64,000 bases of DNA. It comes from a virus. Shown piece after piece: positions 32,315 through 64,000 of the stretch; the stretch's first letter is position 1; every line of letters starts with the position of its first letter. The notes beneath the pieces were generated by a model that was not told the origin of the DNA, searched no databases, and saw only the letters and a list, made by a program, of their open reading frames with translations. The stretch is from positions 62,001-126,000 of the IMG/VR virus record IMGVR_UViG_3300033064_003894. The stretch is one strand, 5' to 3'. A program made the translations under genes and the position numbers.

Positions 32315-32344
32315 TCGAAGTTACGAAAAATAATAGATATATTT

Positions 32345-32932: not shown

Positions 32933-32948
32933 GATTTCTTATTGTTGG

Positions 32949-33024: not shown

Positions 33025-33038
33025 TTAGTTTGGTAAGG

Positions 33039-33116
33039 TGGTAGGGGTGGTCGGATTCGAACCGACACTGTACGAATCTTAAGTTCGTTGCCTGCTGCCA
33101 ATTGGGCTACACCCCC
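33039..33116 (-). tRNA. tRNA-Leu(TAA) with short variable loop
   Basis: Acceptor GGGGGTG/CACCCCT, D-arm GCC/GGC with GG in the loop, anticodon stem ACGAA/TTCGT with loop CTTAAGA, perfect T-arm GTCGG/CCGAC, CCA. The variable region is ACAGT only, identical to the other Leu tRNA. Confidence 0.8.
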
Positions 33117-33122
33117 AGTAAA

Positions 33123-33419: not shown

Positions 33420-34801
33420 TGTGCGGATATTTTTCTTATGTCTTCAAAAGACTGATCTACAAGAAGCCTTCCGTTTTGGTAAACAGTAACAAGCTGTGCG
33501 TCCATGTCAGGGATGCCTTCTCTTCCGGTTTGGTATTTTCCTTGAACTTTGTAAAGCTCAAGACGTCCCTTTTTCGAGTTCTTGCTCTGGTCACTATGTG
33601 GGCGCTTGAAGACGTCGAAACCTTTACCATCACGCTCAGTGTAGCTTGCCTTAAAGGCGAACCTTTGAGTGTCACGATCAACCTTTTGAAGAAGTCCACC
33701 ACCCATCCCAAATGACCAGTTCTCAATAGCAAACCCTTTAAGCGTCATCTCTCTAATGAACTCACGTATGCTATCGAAATTCATTCCATCTCCTTGAATA
33801 ATCCTTATGTAAGGAGGAAGCACTTTATGGCCCGTTGGGTTTTTTGTGTACCCAAACTTATTCATGAGAGCTTCTACGATAAAGGTGTTCACTTCAGTGA
33901 TATGTCCGCTGTCAGGTCTAATTACAACACGACCGTCTCTAGCTTTCACTTGCTCAGCGAGCTCACCACACCAGAAGTCAGAAACAGCTTTCTTGATGTC
34001 CCACGAGTCAGAGACTATAGAGACAATACCTTTCGGGTAAACATTTAGCATGTTCTTGAAGGCCTCAAGCTCTCCGTGCTCACCCCAAGAGGTCATGGTC
34101 GAGTGTTCAGACGCTGGAACGCTGTATCCAGCTACCTGCTCTCCGTAGTAATCTTTTAGAAGCTTTAAGGCCGGAAGATTGTCAGTTCCACGAAAGTTCA
34201 CTAAGTGAGAAGCTCCTCCAATCCCTGCGGCTTCCATCGTAGTAGCGCCACGACATCCAAAGTCATGAAGCATAAACATTAGAGTATCCTCTATGTTTAC
34301 GCACCCAGTCGACTTCAATGCATCTCTAAGGATCTTTTTGATGTAGTACGACTGCGTTCCGACGGTAGAACTGTACCACGACTGCACCAGGAGAGTTTCC
34401 AGGAAGCTGGTAAGCCAGAAGCACTTAGGATCGGTATTCTCTACCGTCATAAGAACGTTGCTCTGTGGGATCACTGAGCCCTCTGGTACGGCCATTATTC
34501 TTACTGGAAGTTGTCCACCATGGTTTTTCAATATATGCTTCCAGCCTTTAATATTAAAATGTGAATCATCTCCGAAATGTCCCTTAGACATATCAGAAGC
34601 TTCTTGTATTTCAACTTCTGTTACTACTTGCCCAAGCATGTAACGTTTTAGAATATACTGTAGTCCAAAGAAAAGAGTGTTTGGGAACTTAGCTCCTTGC
34701 CTTGATTCGAAATAAGAGTAAATCTTTGTAGTACCATGAGGGTATTGTTTGTCGTGAGTAAGCTTATAGCTGTCACTAAACAGTATGATGTTGTCTTTCA
34801 T
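33416..34801 (-). CDS. nadV: Nicotinamide phosphoribosyltransferase
   Basis: 461 residues, the usual NAMPT length. NIILFSDSYKLTHDKQYP, TKIYSYFESRQGAKFP, HDFGCRGATTMEAAGIG, SVPASEHSTMTSWGE and VIRPDSGH are conserved NAMPT segments, including the phosphate-binding His/Asp/Arg sites. It makes NMN from nicotinamide and PRPP. Next to the NMNAT-Nudix gene, it completes a two-step NAD+ salvage route. Confidence 0.95.
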   Translation of the reverse strand: MKDNIILFSDSYKLTHDKQYPHGTTKIYSYFESRQGAKFPNTLFFGLQYILKRYMLGQVVTEVEIQEASDMSKGHFGDDSHFNIKGWKHILKNHGGQLPVRIMAVPEGSVIPQSNVLMTVENTDPKCFWLTSFLETLLVQSWYSSTVGTQSYYIKKILRDALKSTGCVNIEDTLMFMLHDFGCRGATTMEAAGIGGASHLVNFRGTDNLPALKLLKDYYGEQVAGYSVPASEHSTMTSWGEHGELEAFKNMLNVYPKGIVSIVSDSWDIKKAVSDFWCGELAEQVKARDGRVVIRPDSGHITEVNTFIVEALMNKFGYTKNPTGHKVLPPYIRIIQGDGMNFDSIREFIREMTLKGFAIENWSFGMGGGLLQKVDRDTQRFAFKASYTERDGKGFDVFKRPHSDQSKNSKKGRLELYKVQGKYQTGREGIPDMDAQLVTVYQNGRLLVDQSFEDIRKISAQ

Positions 34802-34806
34802 CGAAC

Positions 34807-35724
34807 TTATTGGCGTATGATTGAATTAAGCACAAGCTTAACTATTGGTTTATGCTGGTCTATAATCAAATTATCTAAATCCTCAAGCTTAAATAGTCCA
34901 GCATCGCAAATATCGTCATCGGCATACGGCTTTCCAAAAGAAAAATCAAATACAAAAACTGAAGACATTATTTTATCTTCCTCTTTCCTGTATCTCCAGT
35001 CTGTAGTTAAAAAGCTTCCAACATATCTTCCTGGAGGATGCACACCAATCCCTTTAACCTCTTCGCTTAGTTCTCTTGCGGCAGCGGATTCAAGGCTTTT
35101 ATCTGTAGGAGAAACGAATCCTCCCGGAAACCTCCATTTATCTTTAGGGTCTGTGTGTTTTTTGCAAAGAACAATGCTGTTATTATTCACATCAATTACT
35201 GCACAATCTACAGCTTGATACGCAACAGCATATCTTTGGAAAGAAGAATAAATAACGCCGCGTCTAAATTCAGAAGAAGATCTTACTTCATTAGAAACAA
35301 AATCTCTCATTTCTGTTCCAGAAATCTTGTAAGAATCCTCTAGCTCAACAACAGTGTGTTTCCCTTTGTAATGAGAAATGAAGCTATCCCTTGAACCGTA
35401 TAGAGTGACAGAAAGGTTCCCGCCAACTATTTCTCTAATCTTATTGTCAAGCTGATTGCTCCAGTCTTCATCAGATGGCATATCGATAACGTGTGAAACA
35501 TAAATGTTTGGATATTCATAAATAAGCATTTGCTGACGAGTTAGAAAATCTAGTGGATTTTGTCTTGTACCAAAAATATCAGGTGCTGACCCAATAAAAA
35601 TAACTACCTTTCTATGTCTTACAAGGGCAGAGTCAATGATTTCTTTATGTCCGTCATGTAGTTCATGTACTTGAAATCTTCCAATAATCACCCCTACGTC
35701 AGTTTTTGGAATTTTGACTTTCAT
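34807..35724 (-). CDS. Bifunctional NMN adenylyltransferase / Nudix hydrolase
   Basis: 305 residues. N-terminal adenylyltransferase: IGRFQVHELHDGHKEII (HDGH replaces HxGH) and YKISGTEMRDF. C-terminal Nudix domain: GGFVSP and AAARELSEEVKG match G-x5-E-x7-REUxEExGU. It converts NMN to NAD+ and probably cleaves an ADP-ribose-type nucleotide. It is 5 bp from nadV in the same operon. Confidence 0.9.
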   Translation of the reverse strand: MKVKIPKTDVGVIIGRFQVHELHDGHKEIIDSALVRHRKVVIFIGSAPDIFGTRQNPLDFLTRQQMLIYEYPNIYVSHVIDMPSDEDWSNQLDNKIREIVGGNLSVTLYGSRDSFISHYKGKHTVVELEDSYKISGTEMRDFVSNEVRSSSEFRRGVIYSSFQRYAVAYQAVDCAVIDVNNNSIVLCKKHTDPKDKWRFPGGFVSPTDKSLESAAARELSEEVKGIGVHPPGRYVGSFLTTDWRYRKEEDKIMSSVFVFDFSFGKPYADDDICDAGLFKLEDLDNLIIDQHKPIVKLVLNSIIRQ

Positions 35725-35726
35725 GA

Positions 35727-35945
35727 TTATCTATTTTTAATTAGTTTAGCAATCAAGATTGGCCAAAATATGACTAATATGATTTCTTTTCTCATTCCAG
35801 ACTCATATATTCTCTCTTCTTCTCCTTCATCATTAATAACTTTCTTTGTTACTCTGGAGTCCACATCAAATAAGAAATTGAGACTTACATTAAAAATCAT
35901 TCCTAGTGCAATATAAACAATCAAAATCAGAAGTAGGGTTGCCAT
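35727..35945 (-). CDS. Small two-span membrane protein
   Basis: 72 residues from ATG 35945; an in-frame ATG at 35996 adds a Pro/Thr-rich leader that looks untranslated. Two hydrophobic segments (TLLLILIVYIALGMIF and EIILVIFWPILIA) flank a charged loop. It precedes the NAD+ genes. The role is unknown. Confidence 0.5.
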   Translation of the reverse strand: MATLLLILIVYIALGMIFNVSLNFLFDVDSRVTKKVINDEGEEERIYESGMRKEIILVIFWPILIAKLIKNR

Positions 35946-35999
35946 TTTGTATGGGTTGGTATTGGTTGGTATTGGCACACGGTTAAGTACGCCCAATGC

Positions 36000-36626
36000 T
36001 CAGACAGACCGAATAATCTCTTCAGCGTATTTGGTCTTAATTGCCAGCTTGCTTTTCTCTACCCACATATGCTCAATTTCCTCGTATTCCACCAAGAACC
36101 AGTTGGTACCAATGTAACTAAGGTAAAGACGGTCTCTGTTGAGTGCGTAAGAAGTTACTGGATCCTTCTCAGGCTTTTTACGATTCTTGCATCGAAGGTT
36201 GCCGTAGTAGTCGATATCGGGACATTCAAGAAGAATGCCTTCTTCGTCCGTGTAGAAGCTAGATCGGTAAAAAGCCCTTTTACCATTAATAATACGGTAG
36301 TTCACGTATCTCTTAACGTGCTCCCTAAGATGAAAGCCACGAATGCTTCGGTTGCTGCAGGATTCGCAAATTTCCTTCCAAACATCATCCCACTTCCTTC
36401 CACAGTTATTTTCCAAGAACCTGTAAAGAGGCGTGAGTCTGTCTGCCATACCTTTTTTGGAACTCAAGCCGCATGAGTAAGGAAAACGCATGCCTTCTTT
36501 GGTGAAGTTGAATGCATCTTCGTCGTAATCCACAGAACGAATTTTCTTTCTGCGAACCATTTTGTACCCGCCGTATCCGTAGACGCGGCCAGTATCGATG
36601 ATCACGTGTTTCATGTCTTGTCTCAT
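36000..36626 (-). CDS. Unknown 208-aa protein of a widespread hypothetical family
   Basis: The core PLYRFLENNCGRKWDDVWKE followed by ICESCSNRSIRGFHLREHV recalls a hypothetical family I associate with Planctomycetes and Bacteroidetes genomes (memory only, not checked). The C-terminus has Cys and acidic residues and could bind metal. A 5-codon open frame with a strong ribosome site precedes it. Confidence 0.5.
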   Translation of the reverse strand: MRQDMKHVIIDTGRVYGYGGYKMVRRKKIRSVDYDEDAFNFTKEGMRFPYSCGLSSKKGMADRLTPLYRFLENNCGRKWDDVWKEICESCSNRSIRGFHLREHVKRYVNYRIINGKRAFYRSSFYTDEEGILLECPDIDYYGNLRCKNRKKPEKDPVTSYALNRDRLYLSYIGTNWFLVEYEEIEHMWVEKSKLAIKTKYAEEIIRSV

Positions 36627-36632
36627 GTTACC

Positions 36633-36662
36633 TCAAATTACTGTAATCATGTGTACCTCCTT
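36633..36662 (-). promoter_or_regulatory. Possible leader peptide (MITVI) before the 208-aa gene
   Basis: A strong Shine-Dalgarno (AAAGGAGGT) is followed by ATG and five codons then TGA, ending 7 nt before the ATG at 36626. It could couple translation or sense something, or be chance. Confidence 0.3.
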
Positions 36663-36682
36663 TGTTTGAGTTAATGGAAAGC

Positions 36683-36711
36683 GGGACGGATTTTGTTCCA
36701 GGCTCCGTCCC
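36683..36711. other. GC-rich hairpin upstream of the 208-aa gene
   Basis: GGGACGGA and TCCGTCCC form an 8-bp stem with a 13-nt loop. On the plus strand TATTTT follows, so it could be a weak plus-strand terminator, but no plus-strand gene ends here. Confidence 0.4.
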
Positions 36712-36795
36712 TATTTTACCTTCTTCTTGACCAGCACTAAAATTGACTGAGAGATTGGTGGGGGAGGTGGGACTTGAACCCACGACCAACGAATT

Positions 36796-37245
36796 CACAT
36801 TTGTGTTGGTTTCCCAACTCTGTGGACTATTTCACACCCGTCGACTTTACGTTACGGGCCGGGTTGTTATTTCCGGTAATTAAGAAGACTGTACTTCTCC
36901 GGTAGTCTCTGAACCTTCAAGCGGTGTACCGCAAGATTGGCTGCAGATTGCCATTTCCGATAAGTTATAAGAAGTCATCCATTTTTTTATGGCTGCATGA
37001 CTTACTCCAAACATTTTCCCAACTTTGTTGAACGAGTTTTCATTAAGAAGATTTGTAAGTTCCTCTCTTGATGGACGATCAACTTTTCTGGAATGTATCC
37101 TGTAGCACTGAACGGAGCAGAACTCTCTCTGTCTTCGCTGCAATGTAGACCCACAGTGACACCTTTCTGTTACCTTATCGACTTTAGGTTTCCTGCAATT
37201 AAACCCGATCCCAACGGATCTTTCGAGTCCATTGGCACCTAGCTG
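36796..37245 (-). mobile_element. Group I intron in tRNA(CAT)
   Basis: 450 nt. Core elements are readable: P (AATTGCAGGAAACC, 37187-37200), Q (AATCTGCAGCCAATC, 36935-36949), R (GGTTCAGAGACTACC, 36901-36915) and S (AAATAGTCC, 36824-36832); GACTA of R pairs with TAGTC of S (P7). The exon ends in T and the intron ends in G, as group I splicing needs. The open frame at 36880-37143 lies between P and R and includes Q. Confidence 0.85.
36880..37143 (-). CDS. Intron-encoded Zn/HTH protein, likely homing-nuclease remnant
   Basis: 87 residues from a TTG. REFCSVQCYRIHSRK continues a zinc knuckle whose first pair (CHCG) lies in frame just upstream, and EELTNLLNENSF to KMFGVSHAAIKKWM is a helix-turn-helix as in HNH homing endonucleases. 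No HNH catalytic motif and no in-frame ATG are seen, so it may be a decayed nuclease or start at a non-AUG codon further upstream. The frame ends inside the intron core. Confidence 0.5.
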   Translation of the reverse strand: MQRRQREFCSVQCYRIHSRKVDRPSREELTNLLNENSFNKVGKMFGVSHAAIKKWMTSYNLSEMAICSQSCGTPLEGSETTGEVQSS

Positions 37246-37407
37246 ATGAGTTCGCTGCTCTAAACCAACTGAGCTACACCCCCATTTTTATTTAAGGGAA
37301 TGGCACGGGGTTTATCCGTAATTATTAGCCTACTTGGTTTGATTTTTCTAGAATATTACAAACGGTTCGCTATCTAACTGATTATCTAGTAATCACGCAT
37401 TCTTTTT

Positions 37408-37485
37408 TGGTACTCACATGTGGATTTGAACCACAGACATCCACCTTATCAGGATGGCGCTCTTACCGGGCTGAGCTATGTGAGT
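37408..37485 (-). tRNA. tRNA-Ile(GAT)
   Basis: Acceptor ACTCACA/TGTGAGT, D-arm GCTC/GAGC, anticodon loop CTGATAA, T-arm TGTGG/CCACA, CCA encoded. Confidence 0.85.
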
Positions 37486-37496
37486 TTGTTTTAAAA

Positions 37497-37607
37497 TCTT
37501 GCTATAGGATCTCTACAAGTGTCACAACATCCCCTCACCGACCCAGTTCCGGAACTAATCGTTTAGTTGGGTATGATTCTATTACCTGAGTCTCCTCTAT
37601 AGCAAGA
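37497..37607 (-). ncRNA. 111-nt element closed by an 11-bp stem
   Basis: TCTTGCTATAG and CTATAGCAAGA form perfect ends. Inside are ACTAA-ACGA-TTAGT and the palindrome AGTTCCGGAACT. A TATAAT-bearing palindrome (37618-37635) lies just upstream on the minus strand, and TTTTAAA follows the stem. It has no T-arm, so it is not a tRNA. Possibly a small RNA expressed with the tRNAs. Confidence 0.4.
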
Positions 37608-37617
37608 CTGCTCTGGA

Positions 37618-37635
37618 GCTGTATTATAATACAGC
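37618..37635. promoter_or_regulatory. Palindrome containing TATAAT
   Basis: GCTGTATTATAATACAGC is a perfect 18-nt palindrome upstream of the 111-nt element. It can be a promoter -10 (TATAAT) under operator control or a hairpin. Confidence 0.3.
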
Positions 37636-37642
37636 AATTGAT

Positions 37643-37718
37643 TGGTACCCTCTGCGGGAATTGAACCCAGCATCAGCTCCTTGAAAGGGAGCTATCCTGA
37701 CCGTTAGAAGAAGAGGGC
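37643..37718 (-). tRNA. tRNA-Glu(TTC)
   Basis: Acceptor GCCCTCT/AGAGGGT, anticodon stem GCTCC/GGAGC with loop CTTTCAA, T-arm CTGGG/CCCGC-like, CCA encoded. Confidence 0.85.
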
Positions 37719-37722
37719 ATTG

Positions 37723-37796
37723 CGTCCCCAGCATGAGTCGAACATGCGACCTACGATTTAGGAAACCGTCGCTCTATCCAACTGAGCTATGAGGAC
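37723..37796 (-). tRNA. tRNA-Arg(CCT)
   Basis: Acceptor GTCCTCA/TGGGGAC, D-arm GCTC/GAGC, anticodon loop TTCCTAA, T-arm GCATG/CATGC. CCA is not encoded. Confidence 0.85.
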
Positions 37797-37806
37797 ATTT
37801 AATTAG

Positions 37807-37879
37807 TGAGACCAGCAGGGATCGAACCTGCGACATTCTGGTTAAGAGCCAGATACTCTACCAACTGAGTTATGGTCCC
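37807..37879 (-). tRNA. tRNA-Lys(CTT)
   Basis: Acceptor GGGACCA/TGGTCTC, D-arm ACTC/GAGT, anticodon stem TCTGG/CCAGA with loop CTCTTAA, T-arm GCAGG/CCTGC. CCA is not encoded. Confidence 0.85.
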
Positions 37880-37881
37880 TG

Positions 37882-37955
37882 TACTATCGGCTGGACTCGA
37901 ACCAGCAACCTTTCGCATATGAAACGAATGCTCTATCCGGTTGAGCTACGATAGC
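37882..37955 (-). tRNA. tRNA-Met(CAT), elongator type
   Basis: Acceptor GCTATCG/CGATAGT, anticodon stem TTCGT/GCGAA with loop TTCATAT, T-arm GCTGG/CCAGC. It lacks initiator features. It is the second CAT-anticodon tRNA besides the intron-containing one, so one of the two may be Ile2. Confidence 0.8.
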
Positions 37956-37989
37956 GTACTGTTAAAACTAACAGAAATGTAGTTGAGGA

Positions 37990-38009
37990 GGAGGCAGTTT
38001 AATGCCTCC
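37990..38009 (-). other. Hairpin after the 84-aa gene
   Basis: GGAGGCA and TGCCTCC with a 6-nt loop lie just past the stop of the gene ending at 38019. There is no T-run, so it may stabilise mRNA ends or mark tRNA processing. Confidence 0.35.
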
Positions 38010-38018
38010 CCCTATCAA

Positions 38019-38273
38019 CTAGGCGTATCCATGTTCCTTCATGGAAGCAAGTACGCCTTCTAGCGATTCGTCAATCATTTCGATCATCTCTTCAATGTCT
38101 TGATTGCAAAGATCAGAGTAAAGAACCCAAAGCGCTGAACCCTTAAGGTTGCTATCATGCAAAGTCTCAATCAGATCTTCTCTTTCGTGCCTTAAAAGTT
38201 GTGCTATTACTGTTATTGCACCAGGGTTACCAAGAGAGATGTCATAGAGCTCATTTTCCGAGTATCCACTCAC
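38019..38273 (-). CDS. Unknown 84-aa helical protein
   Basis: GTG start overlapping the previous stop (GTGA), coupled to the secreted protein upstream. All-helical and acidic (HEREDLIETLHDSNLKG). No motif recognised. Phage proteins beginning with a similar ENELYDISLGNPGA pattern come to mind, but this is unchecked. Confidence 0.5.
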   Translation of the reverse strand: MSGYSENELYDISLGNPGAITVIAQLLRHEREDLIETLHDSNLKGSALWVLYSDLCNQDIEEMIEMIDESLEGVLASMKEHGYA

Positions 38274-39049
38274 TGAGGCCCGAATCGCTCGATTCCAATA
38301 CCGGCGTTGTAATCTACAGACTGTATTGAGTAGCTATCTACGTACGATTGGCTCAAGAACGTAACCCCTGTTGGATCCCAAGTAACATTCTCTCCTCGTG
38401 CCCTAGCAATGCTGGTGAGTTGTGCGTATACGACATTACGTGATGATCCTATCATGATTCTAACACGGTACTCATTATCCATTACGCTAATCTTAATGAA
38501 GTCACGTCCGCCTCCAGCAGCGACTCCTGACGGTTCATCAGTAAGGTAGAATCGAATTCCACAGTTGTATGGTGCCATGCTTGGTGCAGACATGAACGAT
38601 ACAGAAGAAGGATCTTCATTAATTAAAGAACCGTGCTCAGAGATTTTAGTGTCTTCGCATGAAGTGTCATACGTTATATCCATTCGAATCTTCCAGATGT
38701 TTGAATCGTATGCCTGGAATGTGGCAGTTCGACCGAAGGCGTTTCCTTTGATTTTTCCTTTGAGCTCTGCCTTGCTCTCGACGTAAGCGTTCACTAGAAT
38801 AACGTTCTGCTCAGCCTTCCAAGCACCATCTTTTCCTTCAGGAACAATAACGATGATTGAATCACCGCCAAGAGTCTGTTTGTCTTTTGTTACGGCAGAC
38901 CACGTGATCTTGTACGTGCCAGCCTTTTTCGGATCTCCATGTATGGCGGTAGTTGCTCCACCCAACGTTTTGTCTTTTTCTTGTGCTGTCGCCTGAGACG
39001 AGAACATCGTCGCGGCAAAGGTAAGAAGTAAGAAGTAGTACTTTTTCAT
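38270..39049 (-). CDS. Secreted protein with signal peptide
   Basis: 259 residues; MKKYYFLLLTFAATMFSSQA is a Sec signal with likely cleavage after ATAQ. The mature part is beta-rich with two Cys (CEDTK, CGIRF) that could form a disulfide. No family recognised. It may act in the periplasm or at the cell surface, or be lipid-free cargo. It lies between tRNA clusters. Confidence 0.6.
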   Translation of the reverse strand: MKKYYFLLLTFAATMFSSQATAQEKDKTLGGATTAIHGDPKKAGTYKITWSAVTKDKQTLGGDSIIVIVPEGKDGAWKAEQNVILVNAYVESKAELKGKIKGNAFGRTATFQAYDSNIWKIRMDITYDTSCEDTKISEHGSLINEDPSSVSFMSAPSMAPYNCGIRFYLTDEPSGVAAGGGRDFIKISVMDNEYRVRIMIGSSRNVVYAQLTSIARARGENVTWDPTGVTFLSQSYVDSYSIQSVDYNAGIGIERFGPQ

Positions 39050-39108
39050 GTGGTTTCCCTATGGTTACGTAAAGCGAAATGCCTTACGTGTTCATCTAAA
39101 AGATGAAG

Positions 39109-39185
39109 TGGCTCCACGGATCGGACTCGAACCGACGACCATCTGATTAACAGTCAGACGCTCTGACCAACTGAGCTACCGTGGA
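39109..39185 (-). tRNA. tRNA-Asn(GTT)
   Basis: Acceptor TCCACGG/CCGTGGA, D-arm GCTC/GAGC, anticodon stem TCTGA/TCAGA with loop CTGTTAA, T-arm GTCGG/CCGAT, CCA encoded. Confidence 0.9.
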
Positions 39186-39230
39186 AATTCCATCTACGTA
39201 TTTATTCCATAAAAATCATAAAAATATAAT

Positions 39231-39307
39231 TGGTAGGCGTTGAGGGACTCGAACCCACGACATCCTCCATGTAAAGGAGGTACTCTAACCGACTGAGCTA
39301 AACGCCT
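39231..39307 (-). tRNA. tRNA-Val(TAC)
   Basis: Acceptor AGGCGTT/AACGCCT, anticodon stem CCTCC/GGAGG with loop TTTACAT, T-arm GTGGG/CCCTC, CCA encoded. Confidence 0.9.
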
Positions 39308-39337
39308 AATGTTATTTCTTTTTTTTACTTTCTTTTT

Positions 39338-39760
39338 TTATTTATTAGTCGAATTTATCATTTCCATTACACTGAAACTTCCATGTCTTGTTATTTTGTC
39401 TTCCGGAACTCTATGATAACTACCGACATATAGAGAATATGATGCGGAAGAGTTACAAGAAGAATAGAAATACTTACCAAGGCAGTCTTTCTTTTGATCT
39501 ATTCTGCGCTGCATTTGGTTAGGAAGTATAATACAAAAAGAGCTAAATTGCTCTAAGTTTTTCCTTATAAATATCTCTGGACTGTATGTACAACAAAATC
39601 CATCAAACTCGACACCTTCAACGTCAACAGGCTCAGTTCCTAATGTAAATACCTTGACTGAACTGCTCCTGCACGAAGACAAGTCTTTAATGAACTTATT
39701 TTCGACAGACACTAAAGGAGTGAAGAGTACAAACGAATGTATAACTATAGCTGTCTTCAT
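39338..39760 (-). CDS. Unknown 140-aa protein
   Basis: Short hydrophobic strands and a Cys-rich middle; no motif recognised. The ATG has TATAAG 5 nt upstream and no Shine-Dalgarno. It could be a small Rossmann-like protein, but the evidence is thin. Confidence 0.45.
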   Translation of the reverse strand: MKTAIVIHSFVLFTPLVSVENKFIKDLSSCRSSSVKVFTLGTEPVDVEGVEFDGFCCTYSPEIFIRKNLEQFSSFCIILPNQMQRRIDQKKDCLGKYFYSSCNSSASYSLYVGSYHRVPEDKITRHGSFSVMEMINSTNK

Positions 39761-39765
39761 ATGGT

Positions 39766-39771
39766 CTTATA
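39766..39771 (-). promoter_or_regulatory. -10 box TATAAG
   Basis: Part of GGTATAAG, ending 5 nt before the ATG at 39760; consistent with a leaderless transcript. Confidence 0.4.
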
Positions 39772-39783
39772 CCAAGCATTCAG

Positions 39784-41169
39784 TTAGTTTTCAAAGCCGA
39801 CAAAAGACGGTTGCCAGAAATTCCCCTTATCTTTGAATGCTTTAACTGCGGACAAGTAGGCTGATTTGCCTATATATTTATTCTTATTTTTAAAGATTTC
39901 TTCTCTTTGAGATCTTGAGAATCCAGTACCAACACGACCGATGACCTCTCCATCTGGAGACAAAGAGTATTCTAAAGATCCCATACTTCCTTTTGGTTTC
40001 CCATGCTTATCGATCTCCTCAATAATACCCCTAACATACACAGGGTACTCATCTCTAAACTTAAGCTTCATAGGAGTCTTCTTTCCTTCCTCATGCACTA
40101 TAATGCCCTCATGAGTTTGCCCATGTTGTTTATTTTTAATAGAAGAGTACAGAGCCCTCTTTTGCTCTTCTGTGTATGCGAATTCAGGAAGCTCTAATTG
40201 TGGCATTTTCTTCACTAGATCTTGAAGTATCGCAATCCTTCCCTTAAAGCTAGAGGCTAATGCTCCGCCGTCCATATTATAAACATCAAATGGAGACATC
40301 TTTAGTGATCCAAGTTCTTGCTGCTTAGACCGGCTCTTCATTACGCTGGAGTTTAGAATCCCGCCTATTTGATGTAGCTCTAGCGGAGCACCTTTTTTGT
40401 CTTTACCCCAAATCTCTCCACGTACGATCATCTTCTTTACATCTTTAGGTACCTTAGTCCTATAAAGATCTTCAAGCTTATGTGTATGTTCAATCAGTCC
40501 AGACTTAGCCCTTGCAGGATCTCTATATGAGAAAAGCCTTGGATGCTTACCAGGGTCAAGCACCATTAAATTGTGCGCGCCGTCAATTTTAGAAGAAAAA
40601 ATCTGCCTTGGATTGTTAAATTCAACATCATCTATAAGTTTATATTTTGGCTTTACATTAGAAATATTATATTTATCTTTAGTTGGAGTAATGTTTTTCA
40701 GGTACCACCCCTTATCATATCTCTTATCTTTTACTAGTATGAATTCTTCTGGGTACTTTTCATTATAAAGATTGAATCGTATATGGTTATCACCTGATCT
40801 TAAAATCTCAACATCAGAATCTATGACCTTCTTAATCTTTTCTCCGTCCCTTGTCTTTCCGTAAGTTGACCGTATTTCTCCTTCATAATTCATATATTCT
40901 TTTGTATGCGTTGGTTGCCTGAATACAATAATTCCAGGATCTCCAGGCTTCGGCATTTCTTTTTTAGTTGCCCAGCTGTGAGCAACGCCTGTATCAGGGT
41001 CTAACAGTCTAAGATCATAGTGGTCTCCAGCTCTTTTGGCTGGGTGTTTTTGTAATACAAACCGTGACATTTTAGGTATATCTGTCACGGAGACAGGGTC
41101 AAAATTTTTCCTGTCAGGAAGACCAGGAATGTCAGCATACTTAAACAAGTAGTCACCAAGCCTTGACAC
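39784..41169 (-). CDS. ATP-dependent DNA ligase with N-terminal LigD-type phosphoesterase
   Basis: 461 residues. The first 130 match the LigD 3'-phosphoesterase domain: RFVLQKHPAKRAGDHYDLRL and AHSWATKKEMPKPG. The ligase core follows: FSSKIDGAHNLM (adenylated Lys, motif I), IVRGEIWGKD (motif III), THEGIIVHEE and PMKLKFRDEY (motifs IV-V), then GRVGTGFSRSQREEIF. It would trim 3' ends and seal breaks. GTG start with TAAAAT 6 nt upstream. Confidence 0.8.
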   Translation of the reverse strand: MSRLGDYLFKYADIPGLPDRKNFDPVSVTDIPKMSRFVLQKHPAKRAGDHYDLRLLDPDTGVAHSWATKKEMPKPGDPGIIVFRQPTHTKEYMNYEGEIRSTYGKTRDGEKIKKVIDSDVEILRSGDNHIRFNLYNEKYPEEFILVKDKRYDKGWYLKNITPTKDKYNISNVKPKYKLIDDVEFNNPRQIFSSKIDGAHNLMVLDPGKHPRLFSYRDPARAKSGLIEHTHKLEDLYRTKVPKDVKKMIVRGEIWGKDKKGAPLELHQIGGILNSSVMKSRSKQQELGSLKMSPFDVYNMDGGALASSFKGRIAILQDLVKKMPQLELPEFAYTEEQKRALYSSIKNKQHGQTHEGIIVHEEGKKTPMKLKFRDEYPVYVRGIIEEIDKHGKPKGSMGSLEYSLSPDGEVIGRVGTGFSRSQREEIFKNKNKYIGKSAYLSAVKAFKDKGNFWQPSFVGFEN

Positions 41170-41175
41170 TTATGC

Positions 41176-41181
41176 ATTTTA
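41176..41181 (-). promoter_or_regulatory. -10 box TAAAAT of the ligase gene
   Basis: GATAAAAT ends 6 nt before the GTG, with no Shine-Dalgarno. Confidence 0.4.
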
Positions 41182-41205
41182 TCATAAAAACCATAAAAAA
41201 ATAAT

Positions 41206-41565
41206 CTACAAGGAGGATATGACTAATGCAGTACAATCGCTTACATGCTCATATCCAGAGATTCCTCCTTCTTCAACTATTAAGATAAACGAATTATCGG
41301 AAGCAATCTTTTTCAACGCCTTTTTATATGATTCAGTGGCTTCTTTCATAAGCTGCTGCCATCTAGCTGTCCCCTCGACAATACCTTCTTTCTTTATAGT
41401 TTTATATGCTGGTATTTCTTCATAGATATCCTTAGATCTTATTGTGCCAACCTTATGGGCTTTACTTGCATCAAATGAGGAGGCGTCTCCATATCTAATT
41501 TCAGCGCGATCTAAGGTTACTCCGTCTTGTGGAGAAATTAAGGCAAGTAGTAGTATAGGTATCAT
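41206..41565 (-). CDS. Small secreted protein with signal-like N-terminus
   Basis: 119 residues; MIPILLLALISPQDG is a short hydrophobic leader. The mature part has a long helix (ARWQQLMKEATESYKKALKK) then a beta end. The layout recalls small periplasmic chaperone-type proteins, but the identity is unproven. TAATAA lies 6 nt before the ATG. Confidence 0.45.
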   Translation of the reverse strand: MIPILLLALISPQDGVTLDRAEIRYGDASSFDASKAHKVGTIRSKDIYEEIPAYKTIKKEGIVEGTARWQQLMKEATESYKKALKKIASDNSFILIVEEGGISGYEHVSDCTALVISSL

Positions 41566-41578
41566 CTTGTATTATTAA

Positions 41579-41654
41579 TGGTGGAGACGATGGGACTCAA
41601 ACCCATAACTTCTACCTTGCAAAGATAGCACTCTATCAATTGAGTTACGTCCCC
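41579..41654 (-). tRNA. tRNA-Ala(TGC)
   Basis: Acceptor GGGGACG/CGTCTCC, D-arm ACTC/GAGT, anticodon loop TTTGCAA, T-arm ATGGG/CCCAT, CCA encoded. Confidence 0.9.
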
Positions 41655-41657
41655 AAG

Positions 41658-41735
41658 TGGTCTCCGCAGCAGGATTCGAACCTGCGGTCCTCTGCTACCC
41701 AAGAGCAGCGCTCTACCATGCTGAGCTATGCGGAG
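41658..41735 (-). tRNA. tRNA-Pro(TGG)
   Basis: Acceptor CTCCGCA/TGCGGAG, anticodon stem CTGCT/AGCAG with loop CTTGGGT, T-arm GCAGG/CCTGC, CCA encoded. Confidence 0.9.
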
Positions 41736-41742
41736 ATTAAAG

Positions 41743-41818
41743 TGGAGTGGCCGAAGAGACTCGAACTCTCGACATTCTCCTTGGAAGGGAGAAGCTCTAC
41801 CAACTGAGCTACGGCCAC
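41743..41818 (-). tRNA. tRNA-Gly(TCC)
   Basis: Acceptor GTGGCCG/CGGCCAC, anticodon stem TCTCC/GGAGA with loop CTTCCAA, T-arm GAGAG/CTCTT, CCA encoded. Confidence 0.9.
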
Positions 41819-58326: not shown

Positions 58327-58752
58327 CTATTCAGAGATAGACCATAGTCTAACTCTCTTAATTGTATGAAGCTTTTTCCTTGCTTCTATCATGGCTCCCT
58401 GGTTTACAGTAATGCTAAACCTTGTTTGAAGTCCAGAGTGTATGAAGTTAGCAACACGAGTTTTGTTTGGGTCATCATTGCATACAACCCTAAAGATTAT
58501 ATTCTTGATGGGGAAATCATTACAACAAAACGATTTAGACTCTGAACCGATTAGACCTCTTTCGTAAGCCTCAATATCAGAGATTGAATGAAATATACTA
58601 GATCTTACCCTGTTAGGTCTTTTTAAAAAAATTGATATAGTAAGTATATCTCCGCTACATTCGCAGTAGCGGGACATTAAATCTGAAGTTTCAATCGACC
58701 CTACGAACAGGTCGTTTTGTTTTTCTTTTAGCAGTTCTTGGTTTGGAAACAT
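58327..58752 (-). CDS. Unknown last gene of the ubiquitin-like operon
   Basis: 141 residues from ATG 58752 (TTG at 58755 possible), overlapping the end of the E1-like gene by about 62 bp. Cys at about 31/33 (YCECSG) and 77/78 (FCCNDF) could bind metal or be reactive. No E2, RING or Ubl signature. Likely an accessory or target factor. Confidence 0.5.
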   Translation of the reverse strand: MFPNQELLKEKQNDLFVGSIETSDLMSRYCECSGDILTISIFLKRPNRVRSSIFHSISDIEAYERGLIGSESKSFCCNDFPIKNIIFRVVCNDDPNKTRVANFIHSGLQTRFSITVNQGAMIEARKKLHTIKRVRLWSISE

Positions 58753-59464
58753 CAAGAGATTCTACTATATTTGAGGACTCTGCTTCAACAACTTTTATGT
58801 GAATCATTTGCTCCATGTCATAAAACTGCTCGAACGGATTCTTTTTGCCTAGAATCGCATTACGAACGCCTGATCCAATAATACCTGCTATAGTGAAAAC
58901 AGTAAAGACAATTGCCTTTTCTGCACACGGAAGAGGAGTAACTGGACGATTAAGGCTTTCTATGTATTTAGATGCGAGAGTTGGTCTATCTTCTGAACTC
59001 ATCATGAAGAAGGAAGCTCCAGTAGAGCCCATTCTGGCATCAATAAGATAAGATGATTTTGATCCAGACCGAGAGAGAAAGACTGATCGTCTTGAATCTA
59101 TTGAATCTAGAGCAAACACTAGAATGTCAGTTTCTCTATCCATGGACTGGTTTGCAAATTCAACTACCGGATTAATGATTAGTTCGTTTCCGCAGAAATA
59201 TTTTAACTTTTCAGCAAGAGCTTCTGACTTTTGTTTACCTATGTCACTTTCAGTAAAGAACTGACTACCAAGGTTAGCCCTTTCAACGGTGTCCATATCT
59301 ATAAGAGTTAGGTTGCTAATTCCCATCTTTGCAAGACAGAAGGCGGCATTGCTGCCTATTCCTCCGCATCCGACTACGGTTACGCTCCTGTCTTTGTAAA
59401 GCTCAGGATCAAATAATCCAAACTGTCTAGAGAATTTTTCTCTATTTACTTCTAGATCTTCCAT
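58691..59464 (-). CDS. E1/ThiF-like Ubl-activating enzyme
   Basis: 257 residues. SVTVVGCGGIGSNAAFCLA is the nucleotide-binding loop; NLTLIDMDTVERANLGSQ matches the E1 motif with D56, D58 and N64. The usual NxxRQ Arg is Ser here (GSQ). LPCAEKAIVFT offers C180 as a possible thioester Cys. It would adenylate the C-terminus of the Ubl. It is 1 bp from the JAB gene. Confidence 0.85.
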   Translation of the reverse strand: MEDLEVNREKFSRQFGLFDPELYKDRSVTVVGCGGIGSNAAFCLAKMGISNLTLIDMDTVERANLGSQFFTESDIGKQKSEALAEKLKYFCGNELIINPVVEFANQSMDRETDILVFALDSIDSRRSVFLSRSGSKSSYLIDARMGSTGASFFMMSSEDRPTLASKYIESLNRPVTPLPCAEKAIVFTVFTIAGIIGSGVRNAILGKKNPFEQFYDMEQMIHIKVVEAESSNIVESLDVSKPRTAKRKTKRPVRRVD

Positions 59465-59465
59465 T

Positions 59466-61217
59466 TTAACTTATCGACTTTGCTAGTTTAACTGGTTCAT
59501 GCCTAACTATGCTTATAAGAGAGCTATTCTTTAATCCTATAGTCTTTATATATTTCAGAAGAGTATCTTCTGTCGAGCATTCATCCTCTACATCAGACAA
59601 GGGTATACCATTTTTCATTAAAGGAAGTAAGGAATAGGAAAAAGCGGCGATGCCTGTCAAATCTAATGATGACGCAGTTCCTCTAATTATAGACTCTATC
59701 GACTTTATAGTCTGAAGCATTATTGGCTCACTAATTACCTCTATTCGTTTAGATGCCGATGTTTTAGACATAAGTATCAAAACTTCTTCTGTGAACATTC
59801 CACATAGTGCGAATTTATATATTAATCTTTCTTCCTCAAGCGTAAAATTACCAATGCCTCTAATAGATTGGAAGGACACTTTTAATTTATCAAGCAGATG
59901 GTTGTCTGAGTCATACAAAGACCGAACTAAGTACTTAACAGAAATACTATCTTCTTGCTGCTTCTCTGTATCTCCAACAGAGAGGTATGAAGGAACAAAG
60001 ATCTTTTTTGTTGAGTACAGAGCTTCTGTGCCAAACGATGCCGCAATGTCATACATCGAGAATGGAGCAGATACACGCGAAAAGGCATCCTTGTAGAACT
60101 CTTTTTCAACATTTGACTTTATGTTCTTAATATTACATGCACGGCCAGAATCTTTTGCTAAGTGTATATTTTCAGATATACTCTTTAATAGGTCATTTCC
60201 AGCAGAAGTTGCTTGTATTGATGGGAGTGCGGACAAAGGAGAGTCCATAATGTACAGCATTTCTTTATCTGGATTTGCCTGAAACATTGCCACAATCATT
60301 GAGGCTAAGTATTTGCCAACTGTTCCACTTTCAACAAACAGCATTCTCTCAAATGGAACATCTCCAGAGTAATAATTCCTAAGCGCCTCGACTAGTGCGT
60401 CTTTGCCGCTGCATTTCAGACCGTCTTTGTGTATAACAAACGATACAAGTTGCTGTAATGTGAACGTTTCGTAATTGTTTCTTAATTCATATGCCCGTGT
60501 CCGAAGTGACGGTAAAATGTACGTATCTTGATCGAAACCTTTCGCAACTTTAGGTTTTTCGAAATATCCTGGAAATAAATCTAAGTCCTCGTCTTGGGTT
60601 GGATTTACCCACGGAGTGGGAGGAGCGTAGCTCTTTTTTGTTACTTTCTCTTTTATCTCTTCTACCGTCTGATCGTCTAATTCGTCGATAATAGCGATAA
60701 CAGGACACTCAATTGCGATCCTTATAGGACTAAATAGGTCTATTCTGCCAATTATCTCTTGCCTCTTGTTGAATACGCATGACAGAAAGAAACTTGAGTC
60801 TTCTCCAAGAGCTATAATTCCTTTTTCGTCTACGTCTGAGATGAACACTGGCATGTTTACGTGACTATGTCCCCAGTACCTTAGCCTAGGGTATATTGTC
60901 TTAGAGAACTCTTCAAATTTCCCTTCTTTTGTAAAAGACTCAATAAAGTCTGCAAACATTTCTTTTGTTACATTTACACTAGCACCGTCCACAAGTTGTG
61001 GCGGGATATAGAGCTTATCAACGACAAAAGTTTTCTTATCTTCTAATACATCTGCAGTTCCTAGCCAAGCTATTTCTGTGTCTACATGTTTAGTAATTGC
61101 CTGCTGCTTAATAAGCAAAGAGTTGCTCATTCTTATTGAGTAGCCCATTGAGGCCCCATCTTTTAAGCTTATGATAAACTTTTCATTTGACTTTATTTCA
61201 GTCTTCATTCTCGCCAC
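59466..61217 (-). CDS. JAB/JAMM isopeptidase-like protein with large C-terminal region
   Basis: 583 residues from GTG 61217. The N-terminal 200 form a JAB fold: E48, then WGHSHVNMPVFISDVD gives H117, H119, S127 and D130, exactly the H-x-H-x7-S-x2-D metal motif. The rest has no recognised domain. A JAMM enzyme would process the Ubl precursor and/or remove conjugates. TATAAT lies about 20 nt upstream of the start. Confidence 0.8.
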   Translation of the reverse strand: MARMKTEIKSNEKFIISLKDGASMGYSIRMSNSLLIKQQAITKHVDTEIAWLGTADVLEDKKTFVVDKLYIPPQLVDGASVNVTKEMFADFIESFTKEGKFEEFSKTIYPRLRYWGHSHVNMPVFISDVDEKGIIALGEDSSFFLSCVFNKRQEIIGRIDLFSPIRIAIECPVIAIIDELDDQTVEEIKEKVTKKSYAPPTPWVNPTQDEDLDLFPGYFEKPKVAKGFDQDTYILPSLRTRAYELRNNYETFTLQQLVSFVIHKDGLKCSGKDALVEALRNYYSGDVPFERMLFVESGTVGKYLASMIVAMFQANPDKEMLYIMDSPLSALPSIQATSAGNDLLKSISENIHLAKDSGRACNIKNIKSNVEKEFYKDAFSRVSAPFSMYDIAASFGTEALYSTKKIFVPSYLSVGDTEKQQEDSISVKYLVRSLYDSDNHLLDKLKVSFQSIRGIGNFTLEEERLIYKFALCGMFTEEVLILMSKTSASKRIEVISEPIMLQTIKSIESIIRGTASSLDLTGIAAFSYSLLPLMKNGIPLSDVEDECSTEDTLLKYIKTIGLKNSSLISIVRHEPVKLAKSIS

Positions 61218-61274
61218 AAATCGATGACAAAAAAATTAATTATATTTGTTTTAAATTTTCTAGCCGATTAACGG

Positions 61275-61487
61275 CTACAGACCAGCGTCGAAGTTAGGGG
61301 CCAACATCACGTGGGACCCCGGCTGGAGCTGTACGCTCTTGTCTGCGCGAGTCCCGTTAAGGAGAACGCTGTAGTTTACCTTGGTGCTGCCAGAAGCGGA
61401 GATTGCATCCTGCACGGTCATGCCGGGCTGGAACGGAACTCTCACTTGATCTTGGCCAGGCACCTGTACGATGATTTCATTTGCCAT
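61275..61487 (-). CDS. Ubiquitin-like (beta-grasp, ThiS-type) protein
   Basis: 70 residues: EIIVQVPGQDQVRVPF, GMTVQDAISASG and NYSVLLNGTRAD, then VQLQPGSHVMLAP match ThiS/MoaD-like beta-grasp patterns. The C-terminus ends PNFDAGL, not diglycine, so JAB trimming to an exposed Gly may be needed. Strong ribosome site (AGAAGGAAAT). GC-rich compared with its neighbours. Confidence 0.75.
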   Translation of the reverse strand: MANEIIVQVPGQDQVRVPFQPGMTVQDAISASGSTKVNYSVLLNGTRADKSVQLQPGSHVMLAPNFDAGL

Positions 61488-61580
61488 GTTGTATTTCCTT
61501 CTTGTAAGTTTGTTGGGATTACTGAAATATTAAATAGGACTAACATGTGATATTATTCCGTACAAAGTGAAAATTTTTAG

Positions 61581-63479
61581 TTAGAATCTTGGCTCAACGT
61601 CTCTAATTTCAAAGACGCCCAGGTTTACGTCTATCGGATCAGCTATAACTTGTTGATGTCTGTTTTCTACTTCATGCCAAGCATAGCCAACATAGTTGGC
61701 ATCGCCGACTTGAGCATCGCCGACTTGAGCATCGCCGACTTGAGCATCGACGACTTGAGCCTGCTGATGCATCTCTATGAACCTAGCCAGAATAGGTTCA
61801 TTAATATTCACGTTGAGTGGTTTTGGATACTGTTTGTTATATACATCCTTTAAGTCTTTTTCTAATTTCACAAGATCTGCATGGTTAAATAAGGATGACA
61901 TCAAATCATTAATAGCAAATATTATCTCTGGCTCTTTCACCCCGTAGAAGAATGAATACTTAAGTGAAGCAGCAATCTCGGTTGTGTTGTCAATCCCTTC
62001 ATCTGAGCAAAAGTCTGAAACATAATTAATTGCGCCAACAAGATTTTTAACATTAAAGAGAATACCGTTTGAGACAAACTTACCCATAGAGATTAGCTTA
62101 CTAGACCTTATTTTTACAATGTCATTTTTAAGAGCGACAACCTTATTAGAAAAAGCGGCACTTGACAAAGTTTTACACCACAGTGAGCAAATTGTTTCGA
62201 CAGAATAATATTGTTCAGGGTTGATATAGCCCGAATCTTTGTTGTAAGTGTTCATGACCTCTGACAATAAGCTCATCATAGAAAAGATGTCACCTGTTGC
62301 GCAATATGACTTAAGCGCTCCTTCGTACGATCCTAAGCAAACTTCGTTATCCACACTTACGTGTGGATGTCTAATAGTCTCCCTAAGCCCGTGATCAGGA
62401 ATCTCAGCTCGTTCACCACATGAAGGCCCGGAAATCAAATCCGCATATGCACAAACTCTATTCGACTCAAGACTATATACGACCATTATATCGTAAAAAC
62501 CGACACTAGTAGGAGATACTTGAACACTTATCATATCTGTTTGTGACGAGACTTTTTTTATAGCACACTTGATGGTTAATCTAAATTTAACCTGGTATGC
62601 CTGAGACAAAGAGATGAATTTTGAAATGTCACGATTGAGTAAATCAGTTACTGAGCATCTTTTGCTAATATAATTGTCAGAAGAATGATCTCTATTTGAG
62701 AGTCCACTACTAAATGGCGAGCATATAACATTTTTTTTGCTTTCATTTATTAGATATCCATTAGAGATTATAGAGAATTCTTCTAACTTACAGTTATTTG
62801 TATGTGAAAAATTATTACCTTTATATATAGAAGAGTCTACGCCGTCAATTATAGCTGCAGCCAATGAAGCACGCACTATCGCTCCATTTATATTTGCCAC
62901 ACTATGAGCATACGTTTGTTTATTATATCTAGAAATGTTCAGGTTATGAATAGCTGAACTGTTAGAAGAAATCAAATATGGTCTAGGAATAATATTAAAG
63001 CATTCCTTACTTACTATTACGCCATCGTACATCTTAAGTAGACGAATAAAACTCCTAATCTCCTCGGATGACACATAAAGAACAATGTTTGTTAAATATA
63101 TCCCCTCTATTGACGAAACGAACTTCATAGTTATTGGTATTTTCTTTATTAAATAAAAATCATAAAACGCGTCATTAGATCTTTCAAATGGGAAAACTGT
63201 AATATCAAACGAATTCATTGGACCTGCACCAGATTTTATAGCAGAAGGAATTAGTGCATTGATGGTTAATGTTAATACACTTTTATATGAACCAACAGAC
63301 CGCCTTGTCTTTATATTAACTGTCTTTATTGGCCTGCCATAGAGAATAGTTACTCGTTTACTTTTCAATGGCAAGGCATCGTTCTTTTTTGGAGACCAAT
63401 GCAGTTCAGAAGTATTAACCACTGCGTGAAATAGTTTGTTAATATATGAAAGGTTGGTACGGCATGTAATTAATGCCAA
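61581..63479 (-). CDS. Large protein with E2-like domain
   Basis: 632 residues from TTG 63479; start uncertain because the frame stays open about 90 nt upstream without ATG or GTG. IRHPHVSVDNEVCLG at about 370-383 aligns with the E2 pattern HPN...ICLD, with C381 as candidate catalytic Cys and HPH for HPN. DIFSMMSLLSEVMNTYN follows as the E2 helix. The N-terminal 300 residues are beta-rich and unknown. The C-terminus has four AQVGD-like repeats. Confidence 0.65.
   Translation of the reverse strand: MALITCRTNLSYINKLFHAVVNTSELHWSPKKNDALPLKSKRVTILYGRPIKTVNIKTRRSVGSYKSVLTLTINALIPSAIKSGAGPMNSFDITVFPFERSNDAFYDFYLIKKIPITMKFVSSIEGIYLTNIVLYVSSEEIRSFIRLLKMYDGVIVSKECFNIIPRPYLISSNSSAIHNLNISRYNKQTYAHSVANINGAIVRASLAAAIIDGVDSSIYKGNNFSHTNNCKLEEFSIISNGYLINESKKNVICSPFSSGLSNRDHSSDNYISKRCSVTDLLNRDISKFISLSQAYQVKFRLTIKCAIKKVSSQTDMISVQVSPTSVGFYDIMVVYSLESNRVCAYADLISGPSCGERAEIPDHGLRETIRHPHVSVDNEVCLGSYEGALKSYCATGDIFSMMSLLSEVMNTYNKDSGYINPEQYYSVETICSLWCKTLSSAAFSNKVVALKNDIVKIRSSKLISMGKFVSNGILFNVKNLVGAINYVSDFCSDEGIDNTTEIAASLKYSFFYGVKEPEIIFAINDLMSSLFNHADLVKLEKDLKDVYNKQYPKPLNVNINEPILARFIEMHQQAQVVDAQVGDAQVGDAQVGDANYVGYAWHEVENRHQQVIADPIDVNLGVFEIRDVEPRF
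61699..61758 (-). repeat. Four 15-bp tandem repeats in the E2-like gene
   Basis: Unit GCATCGCCGACTTGA on the plus strand, four copies with one substitution. It encodes AQVGD/AQVVD in the C-terminal linker. Length variation by slippage is likely. Confidence 0.9.
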
Positions 63480-63535: not shown

Positions 63536-64000
63536 TTATGGCTTTACTCCTAACTCTCCCATGCAGGTCGTGTAAAATTCACACATTGTCTTTTTACATA
63601 AGAAGGAGTTTGTATTATATGCGAATATCTCTGGGTTTGATATGCCGGCCTTAATGAAGCTAATTGCCCAGTTTATTTTTTTCTCTACAAAGCCAAGGTG
63701 AGCAGCAGTTACAGGCTCTTCTATTTGTATTACCTCAGGATCTCCTCGCTTCTTAAGAAGAGCAATATCATACCTTGTAGACTTACTGTTTATACCATTC
63801 TTGTTCGCTAAATAGGCATACGAAGTATTCTGCCATCTAGACTCTATATTTCCCCATCTTTTCCAGGCGGTCTTGTTGTCTATAACAACATTGGATGTGT
63901 CAATTGTGTCTATATATCCATGGAATGGGATCTCTAGAGAATCGTCAGAAAGATGCGCCTGGACGTGTGACGGCTCTACGCTAGGGAAGACTTCTCTGTT
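63536..64000 (-). CDS. RecB/Cas4-like nuclease, 5' end outside window
   Basis: 154 visible codons from the window edge. IPFHGYIDTID,  VVIDNKTAWKRW and YAYLAN match the PD-(D/E)xK order (D, D-x-K, Q-x3-Y-like), and FLCKKTMCEFYTTC near the end is a Cys cluster as in Fe-S Cas4/AddB nucleases. It is likely a DNA recombination nuclease, upstream of the Ubl operon on the same strand. Confidence 0.6.
   Translation of the reverse strand, partial: NREVFPSVEPSHVQAHLSDDSLEIPFHGYIDTIDTSNVVIDNKTAWKRWGNIESRWQNTSYAYLANKNGINSKSTRYDIALLKKRGDPEVIQIEEPVTAAHLGFVEKKINWAISFIKAGISNPEIFAYNTNSFLCKKTMCEFYTTCMGELGVKP

Follow-up and report, generated by a model that had tools for sequence, protein, structure and literature searches.

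A putative ubiquitin-like conjugation and deconjugation cassette in the replication operon of a tailed phage

Background

Can a phage carry a protein-tagging system of the ubiquitin type of its own, and at which stage of infection would such a system be used? The question is raised by a group of genes on the minus strand of a 64,000-nt stretch of viral DNA, positions 62,001–126,000 of the IMG/VR record IMGVR_UViG_3300033064_003894 (from here: the window). The full record is 140 kb long, runs beyond the window and stems from a tailed phage. A first-pass annotation had described five adjacent minus-strand open reading frames (ORFs) at positions 58,327–63,479, four of them as genes for a ubiquitin-like modifier (Ubl), an E1-like and an E2-like enzyme and a JAMM protein; all five are present at these coordinates. 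We report here that the four proteins very likely form a Ubl conjugation pathway. The cassette as a whole probably represents a complete phage-borne cycle of Ubl conjugation and deconjugation that is deployed together with replication.

Results and discussion

Identification of the four genes and their relatives

For the E2, JAMM and Ubl of the window, neither Pfam nor NCBIfam gave a match above a curated cut-off, and PHROG and PADLOC gave none that was convincing; relatives were therefore sought. A search of IMG/VR with the JAMM protein yielded 57 loci. An E1 was present in nearly all of them, and in many an HPH..C protein and a protein of 70–90 aa were encoded alongside. Of 154 stretches retrieved from viral contigs with the JAMM alignment, 80 were kept; a further 29 came from GTDB genomes, most of them metagenome-assembled genomes of Clostridia. 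Following the removal of contained sequences and the iteration of hidden Markov models (HMMs), the set comprised 123 non-redundant JAMM loci, mostly from IMG/VR. E1, E2, JAMM and Ubl genes lie within 20 kb of each other in 114 of these 123, and the loci short of the full four-gene set are mostly short contigs. As a terminase match was found in 18 of the 24 virus records checked (13 above cut-off), the cassette loci belong largely to tailed phages. Among the 50,697 records of INPHARED, four JAMM queries identified a single one, the unannotated faecal scaffold MT835544, and a plasmid search for the JAMM found none. Close relatives of the window phage were not found in viral_contigs by E2 or primase-helicase.

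HMMs were built from the relatives only, with the window excluded, and run with filters off against the 318 window ORFs plus shuffles. Each model placed the claimed ORF first, with E-values of 3.1e-34 for E1, 3.6e-36 for JAMM, 1.7e-7 for E2 and 1.1e-7 for Ubl, while the runner-up ORFs or shuffles had E-values of 0.99 to 2.5. An HMM search, as proposed in the first-pass annotation, thus singled out the four genes far above background. The catalytic residues named there, E48, H117, H119, S127 and D130 in the JAMM, C180 in the E1 and H371-P372-H373 with C381 in the E2, are present as well, so that models and intact active sites together bear out the four identities.

The E1-like enzyme (58,691–59,464, minus strand, 257 aa) is of the ThiF/MoeB type (Pfam ThiF, 2e-27). 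It matches many E1/ThiF/MoeB models of NCBIfam, all below their equivalog cut-offs. The residues of the ATP site are retained (R13, the GxGxxG loop, D56, D58, N64, Q68, K79 and D120). The Cys taken as the equivalent of C180 occurs in 47 of 48 relatives; in the alignment the window C180 is shifted by three columns, which we read as a misplaced gap. The protein hence has the adenylation domain with ATP-site residues and the catalytic Cys that are looked for in the E1 of a Ubl cassette. Since it consists of one adenylation domain and lacks a separate Cys domain, it is expected to act as a ThiF/MoeB-like homodimer.

In the JAMM/MPN+ isopeptidase (59,466–61,217, minus strand), the domain spans approximately residues 1–205. 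Its metal residues E48, H117-S-H119, S127 and D130, in the arrangement ExnHxHx7SxxD, are invariant in the family alignment. Against the PDB, the family profile retrieved only JAMM isopeptidases of the RPN11/BRCC36 type (best E 0.0019), that is, the proteasomal RPN11 and the K63-specific deubiquitinase BRCC36. A C-terminal extension of 378 aa follows the domain. The first-pass annotation had spoken of large fused regions, and these are genuine ORF sequence, namely residues 206–583 of the JAMM and 1–265 and 425–632 of the E2. None of the three regions has a homologue among the fetched loci, in which the JAMM extension is unique to the window phage. In one virus record (L120:8415-20519), two E1/JAMM/Ubl sets are separated by about 7 kb, and the second JAMM, of 654 aa, bears a C-terminal extension.

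The E2-like protein (61,581–63,479, minus strand, 632 aa) has a UBC-type core at about residues 277–410 with the catalytic motif H371-P372-H373-(x7)-C381-L-G383. Eukaryotic E2s such as UBE2D have the spacing HPN-x7-C, and the spacing in the window protein (371–373, 381) is the same. The pattern P-H..C-x-G is invariant across the 85 aligned E2 domains, which were themselves selected by this motif; among the members detected by HMM it is likewise kept almost throughout. In a rumen subgroup without HPH, a CGG-containing protein takes the E2 position and can be aligned with the E2 family at the profile level. The N-terminal part of the window protein is coiled-coil. Short in-frame (VGDAQ)n repeats occur at 61,650–61,800, near its C-terminus.

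Sequence-only fold detection for the E2 gave coiled-coil noise or nothing significant in Pfam and the PDB; hence structure was used. Because the model of the full-length window protein was too poor, the domain of the relative L036 was folded instead. This model, based on 85 sequences, has a predicted local distance difference test score (pLDDT) of 92 and a predicted template modelling score of 0.75, and the two PDB chains that match it best, out of 350,542, both belong to ubiquitin-conjugating enzymes (3we5, E 8.6e-3, probability 0.96; 8r5h, E 0.14). The BFVD matches of this model are uncharacterised proteins of phages, some of them crAss-like, and one bears the name Type II CBASS E2 domain. 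Structure prediction, also proposed in the first-pass annotation, gave a UBC-like fold for the family model of a relative and a poor result for the window's own full-length E2. In the latter model, the core at 277–410 shows a helix, beta-strands forming a beta-meander, the active-site loop and a further helix. With moderate confidence we assign a UBC fold and an active-site Cys to the window E2.

The Ubl (61,275–61,487, minus strand, 70 aa) is a predicted beta-grasp protein of the SAMP2/ThiS-like kind. Its family profile found archaeal SAMP2 first in the PDB (4e-5), then, among Ubls, PF1061 (1e-4) and ThiS (0.06), and family members have weak Pfam matches to Ub-Mut7C, ThiS and SAMP2. Several loci encode tandem Ubls, two or three, in which each unit ends in KGN or RGA. 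Such unit ends appear to imply processing, and the JAMM may cut at the Gly or Asn or directly behind it. Among 104 distinct short Ubl ORFs, a [KR]G[NA] end followed by 0–3 residues is found in 38, a KxxNA-type end in 50 and some other end in 16. At 0.56, the GC content of the Ubl gene exceeds that of the window (0.40), and its codon score is low; the gene may have been acquired recently or be under strong codon constraint. A conserved protein of about 130 aa (MAKITIAGDAVVVTS...) is encoded 5′ of the Ubl in the gut Clostridia clade (L061:7383-7781, L161:7856-8500, L126:6446-7066) and is apparently fused to it in some loci. Later iterations of the Ubl HMM also pulled in a second protein of the gut clade, of about 130 aa, which is perhaps not a Ubl.

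Several points weigh against a Ubl conjugation cycle. The window proteins are highly divergent, the E1 sharing no more than 28% identity with any relative. The model of the window E2 is weak overall (mean pLDDT 49), with top structural matches to the Tsg101 UEV at a non-significant E-value of 4.5, and the best structural E-value for an E2 comes from the relative L036. The C-terminal chemistry of the Ubl does not appear to be classical, because the window protein ends in ...NFDAGL instead of GG and about half of the distinct relatives, mainly in the gut Clostridia clade, have KADNA-like ends without the usual Gly. No E3 was identified. The individual steps of the mechanism set out below are deduced from conserved residues and co-occurrence.

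The minimal E1, whose best named NCBIfam models are ThiF, and the resemblance of the Ubl to ThiS and SAMP2 also fit a sulfur-carrier pathway. The Ubl would then be a ThiS/MoaD-like sulfur donor, with the E1 making the thiocarboxylate and the JAMM trimming it, as in pyridine dithiocarboxylic acid (PDTC)/quinolobactin clusters, and the apparent E2 would be an accessory for the thio-modification of DNA, tRNA or a metabolite. Sets of E1, JAMM and Ubl without an E2 are indeed known from siderophore clusters (PMC1779556). However, essentially every complete locus has an E2 with the invariant P-H..C-x-G and an E2-like fold, the scanned neighbours include no sulfur-pathway family (rhodanese, desulfurase, ThiG/MoaE or other), and tandem Ubls are better suited to conjugation. 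SAMP2, the top match of the Ubl profile, is moreover a protein-conjugated modifier, which supports conjugation as the predicted function. We consider a sulfur-carrier role improbable.

Comparison with known systems

The first-pass annotation had found the arrangement unlike any known type, and it indeed matches none of Bil, CBASS Cap2/Cap3 and PRTRC. We used the definitions of types 6a–6e and TAPI/TAPK from PMC1779556 and of Bil from PMC11354881. Like Bil, the phage cassette devotes one gene each to Ubl, E2, JAMM and E1, and its JAMM is predicted to process the Ubl precursor as that of Bil does. In Bil, however, BilB is an E2 with a CEHH motif, with the histidines after the Cys, BilD comprises an inactive and an active adenylation domain plus a Cys domain, and BilA carries a C-terminal Gly and is built of two Ubl domains (PMC11354881). 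The phage E2 instead has HPH before C381, its E1 is a single ThiF domain of 257 aa, its 70-aa Ubl has one domain and a DAGL end, and the cassette belongs to a phage replication operon.

With CBASS Cap2/Cap3 (types 6a/6b) the cassette shares the E1, E2 and JAB chemistry, and the phage E1 matches the PADLOC E1-E2 models locally. E2 and E1 are unfused here, whereas Cap2 is an E2-E1 fusion, and a dedicated Ubl is present; the cGAS/DncV-like nucleotidyltransferase (CD-NTase) of CBASS (SMODS) was absent from the 140-kb record in a search in which controls matched. The PRTRC or type 6d plasmid cassette likewise has stand-alone Ubl, JAB, E1 and E2 genes. Yet the window E1 scored 50 bits against a cut-off of 144.75 for PRTRC_ThiF, and the type 6d E2 has no upstream His (PMC1779556). 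A Prok-E2_D search gave no match, nor did it in the control genomes. Burkholderia phage BgVeeders33 (L173:1309-3696, 33 kb) encodes a PRTRC-like E2 (ICTGN..THPN), a JAMM and an E1, apparently an independent phage Ubl cassette of type 6d.

Tandem Ubls, present in some relatives, are reminiscent of the 6e polyUbl operons. These contain an inactive E2/RWD and a JAB-E1 fusion (PMC1779556), while the phage E2 retains its Cys and the genes are unfused. A phage Ubl/JAB pair was described earlier in TAPI (Ubl) and TAPK (JAB+NlpC) of Lambda/T1 tail assembly (PMC1779556); in contrast, the present cassette lies outside the tail operon, has no NlpC in a Pfam scan and includes E1 and E2. Overall, the set lacks defining features of Bil, CBASS, 6e and TAPI/TAPK and falls short of the curated PRTRC E1 model, and its composition resembles that of Bil or of a eukaryotic cascade. 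Searches of open PMC full text brought up no report of a phage-encoded E1-E2-Ubl-JAMM set; most subscription and bioRxiv-only work lies outside this scope, so that novelty is unproven.

Both Bil and CBASS work with a JAMM protease and Ubl-like conjugation (PMC11354881; PMC10097602). The phage JAMM and Ubl could accordingly be a mere anti-Bil or anti-CBASS decoy that disturbs the Ubl-based defence of the host, with E1 and E2 vestigial. Decoys have no need of E1 and E2 activity, though, and the catalytic residues of both are conserved across deep divergence, which makes a decoy highly improbable.

Genomic context

What such a pathway might act on is suggested by its surroundings. In transcriptional order, the minus-strand operon comprises genes for a DNA N6/N4-methyltransferase, a ResIII/DEAD helicase, a protein without assignment, a primase-DnaB protein, two further proteins without assignment and a PD-(D/E)XK nuclease, followed by E2, Ubl, JAMM, E1 and a last ORF, here called X. 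The cassette is hence the 3′ end of a replication operon that reaches to about window-equivalent position 70,961. Directly upstream of E2, at a distance of 56 bases, lies the PD-(D/E)XK (RecB-like) nuclease gene; its 3′ part is at 63,536–64,000 (minus strand), and the full gene (L167:5536-6546; Pfam PDDEXK_1, 9e-11) encodes 336 aa and extends to window-equivalent position 64,546.

ORF X (58,327–58,755, minus strand, 142 aa) shares 65 bases with the 3′ end of E1. No homologue was recognised in Pfam, NCBIfam, PHROG, PADLOC or the fetched loci, and the coding signal is weak, with a codon score of 0.16; genes score 0.29, and spurious ORFs average −0.10 and reach 0.20 at most. Its status as a gene is uncertain.

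Replication clusters (DNA polymerase A, primase, DnaB, Sak4-like AAA or SNF2-type helicase) accompany the cassette in 47 of 124 loci, and 84 of the 86 replication genes concerned are on the cassette strand. Genes for single-stranded DNA-binding protein and exonuclease also occur near the relatives' cassettes. Terminase is clustered in 10 loci only, on the other strand and at least 7.6 kb away. The consistent feature of the cassette is linkage to replication, not to the tail.

The first-pass annotation had attached significance to the adjoining sheath and tube genes. Both are encoded on the plus strand and converge on the cassette, with 4 bases between their end and X. The cassette belongs to the replication operon, a setting shared by its relatives, and a tail-linked function was therefore rejected as the principal explanation. 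Bil targets phage tail proteins. The adjacency of the sheath and tube genes in the window and the conjugation of Ubl by Bil during phage attack (components: PMC11354881) could nevertheless point to competition between phages or to virion marking, with the Ubl placed on the tail proteins of competitors or on the phage's own virions. Given the convergent orientation and the replication genes that neighbour the cassette in relatives, we regard this as quite improbable. On balance, targets tied to replication or early takeover are favoured over virion assembly.

Location in an early replication operon is equally what would be expected of host takeover or counter-defence, the latter having been offered as an alternative in the first-pass annotation. 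The biochemistry would be the same, with early tagging that inactivates, relocates or marks polymerase subunits, nucleases or defence effectors of the host. Other phages use ADP-ribosylation on host proteins early in infection. The patchy spread over unrelated phages and hosts is in line with this idea, and the large lineage-specific extensions of E2 and JAMM could be fast-evolving parts for target recognition. Retention beside replication genes in several phage lineages fits phage targets too, however, and counter-defence alone is unlikely to account for a full complement of conjugation genes that includes a dedicated modifier. Host takeover or counter-defence thus seems possible but rather unlikely.

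A reverse transcriptase gene lies downstream of E1 on the same strand, usually within 1–3 kb, in 58 loci (e.g. L113:12257-13411, L060:6954-8291). It matches PF00078 (8.8e-19) and, best among PADLOC models, RT_II-A (1.6e-47), with YADD and SP motifs. Assignment to diversity-generating retroelements was rejected: the motifs are SP instead of SQ, and A-biased template/variable repeats were found in 0 of 58 loci (controls 0 of 65) by a simple scan run with no positive control. Reverse transcriptase, CD-NTase and proteasome genes were not found in the window phage. Just upstream of its replication operon, on the opposite strand, lies a gene for the large subunit of ribonucleotide reductase (RNR) with a LAGLIDADG/Hint intein (L167:13029-16520, window-equivalent 71,029–74,520), and 15 tRNA genes occur at 29,520–41,818, a span of 12 kb.

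Evolution of the cassette

The adjacency of E2, JAMM and E1 is widespread across the E1 tree, and the placement of the Ubl is clade-specific; the order E2-Ubl-JAMM-E1 is common to the window phage and L034/L147. The branch of the window E1 is very long and lies beside those of the crAss-like E1s, a grouping that may result from long-branch attraction. In crAss-like phages (cr128_1, cr111_1, cr85_1), a block annotated as "ThiF" and "metalloprotease domain" contains an E1, a JAMM (HSHNNMxTFFSGTD) and an adjacent HxH..CxG protein, located between the primase and the genes for uracil-DNA glycosylase, PD-(D/E)XK nuclease and RNR. Four of the five JAMMs from crAss-like and similar phages (L168, L169, L170, L171, L172) match the family HMM at 3e-7 to 3e-5. 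Unlike the window set, the block has no recognised Ubl and is very divergent, and the homology of its HxH..CxG protein to the E2 is not established (hhalign probability 16%).

A possible mechanism

Ubl conjugation by the cassette might proceed as follows. The JAMM would first trim the last residue or residues of the Ubl, or split tandem Ubls where these are present. The single-domain E1, judging by its intact residues, would bind ATP, adenylate the Ubl C-terminus and accept the Ubl on C180 as a thioester. The Ubl could then be handed to C381 of the HPH-type E2, which would attach it to lysines of the target, with the long phage-specific N- and C-terminal regions perhaps serving as adaptors in place of an E3. 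The lineage-specific extensions of E2 and JAMM are candidates for substrate recognition. Finally, the JAMM would take the Ubl off again. In keeping with the observed gene order, the cassette would be co-transcribed with the replication and recombination genes, and this position makes an early role most likely, directed at proteins located at the phage replication machinery or at host proteins coming into contact with it.

A bolder proposal, which we put forward tentatively as possible rather than probable, is that tailed phages of many hosts possess a viral analogue of the ubiquitin/SUMO control of replication forks. It would combine a non-GG modifier (KGN, KADNA or AGL), a minimal E1, an E2 with HPH-x7-Cys in the eukaryotic manner and an RPN11-like JAMM eraser, would be integrated with DNA replication and recombination, and would be directed at proteins of the replication fork or at host nucleic-acid proteins.

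Conclusions

Ubl conjugation in bacteria has so far been described mainly as antiviral defence of the host, as in Bil and CBASS. If the function proposed here is true, complete and conserved conjugation sets in over 100 viral or virus-like loci would reverse this picture, with phages themselves using Ubl chemistry by means of an E2 site of eukaryotic spacing and an RPN11-like eraser. The family is nearly invisible to annotation, as the E2, JAMM and Ubl of the window score above threshold with none of the Pfam or PHROG profiles and INPHARED contains one record with the JAMM. Its recognition would raise the question of which targets phages tag, would provide a new reservoir for studying the origin of E2/JAMM systems and would supply small systems of separate genes for structural work.

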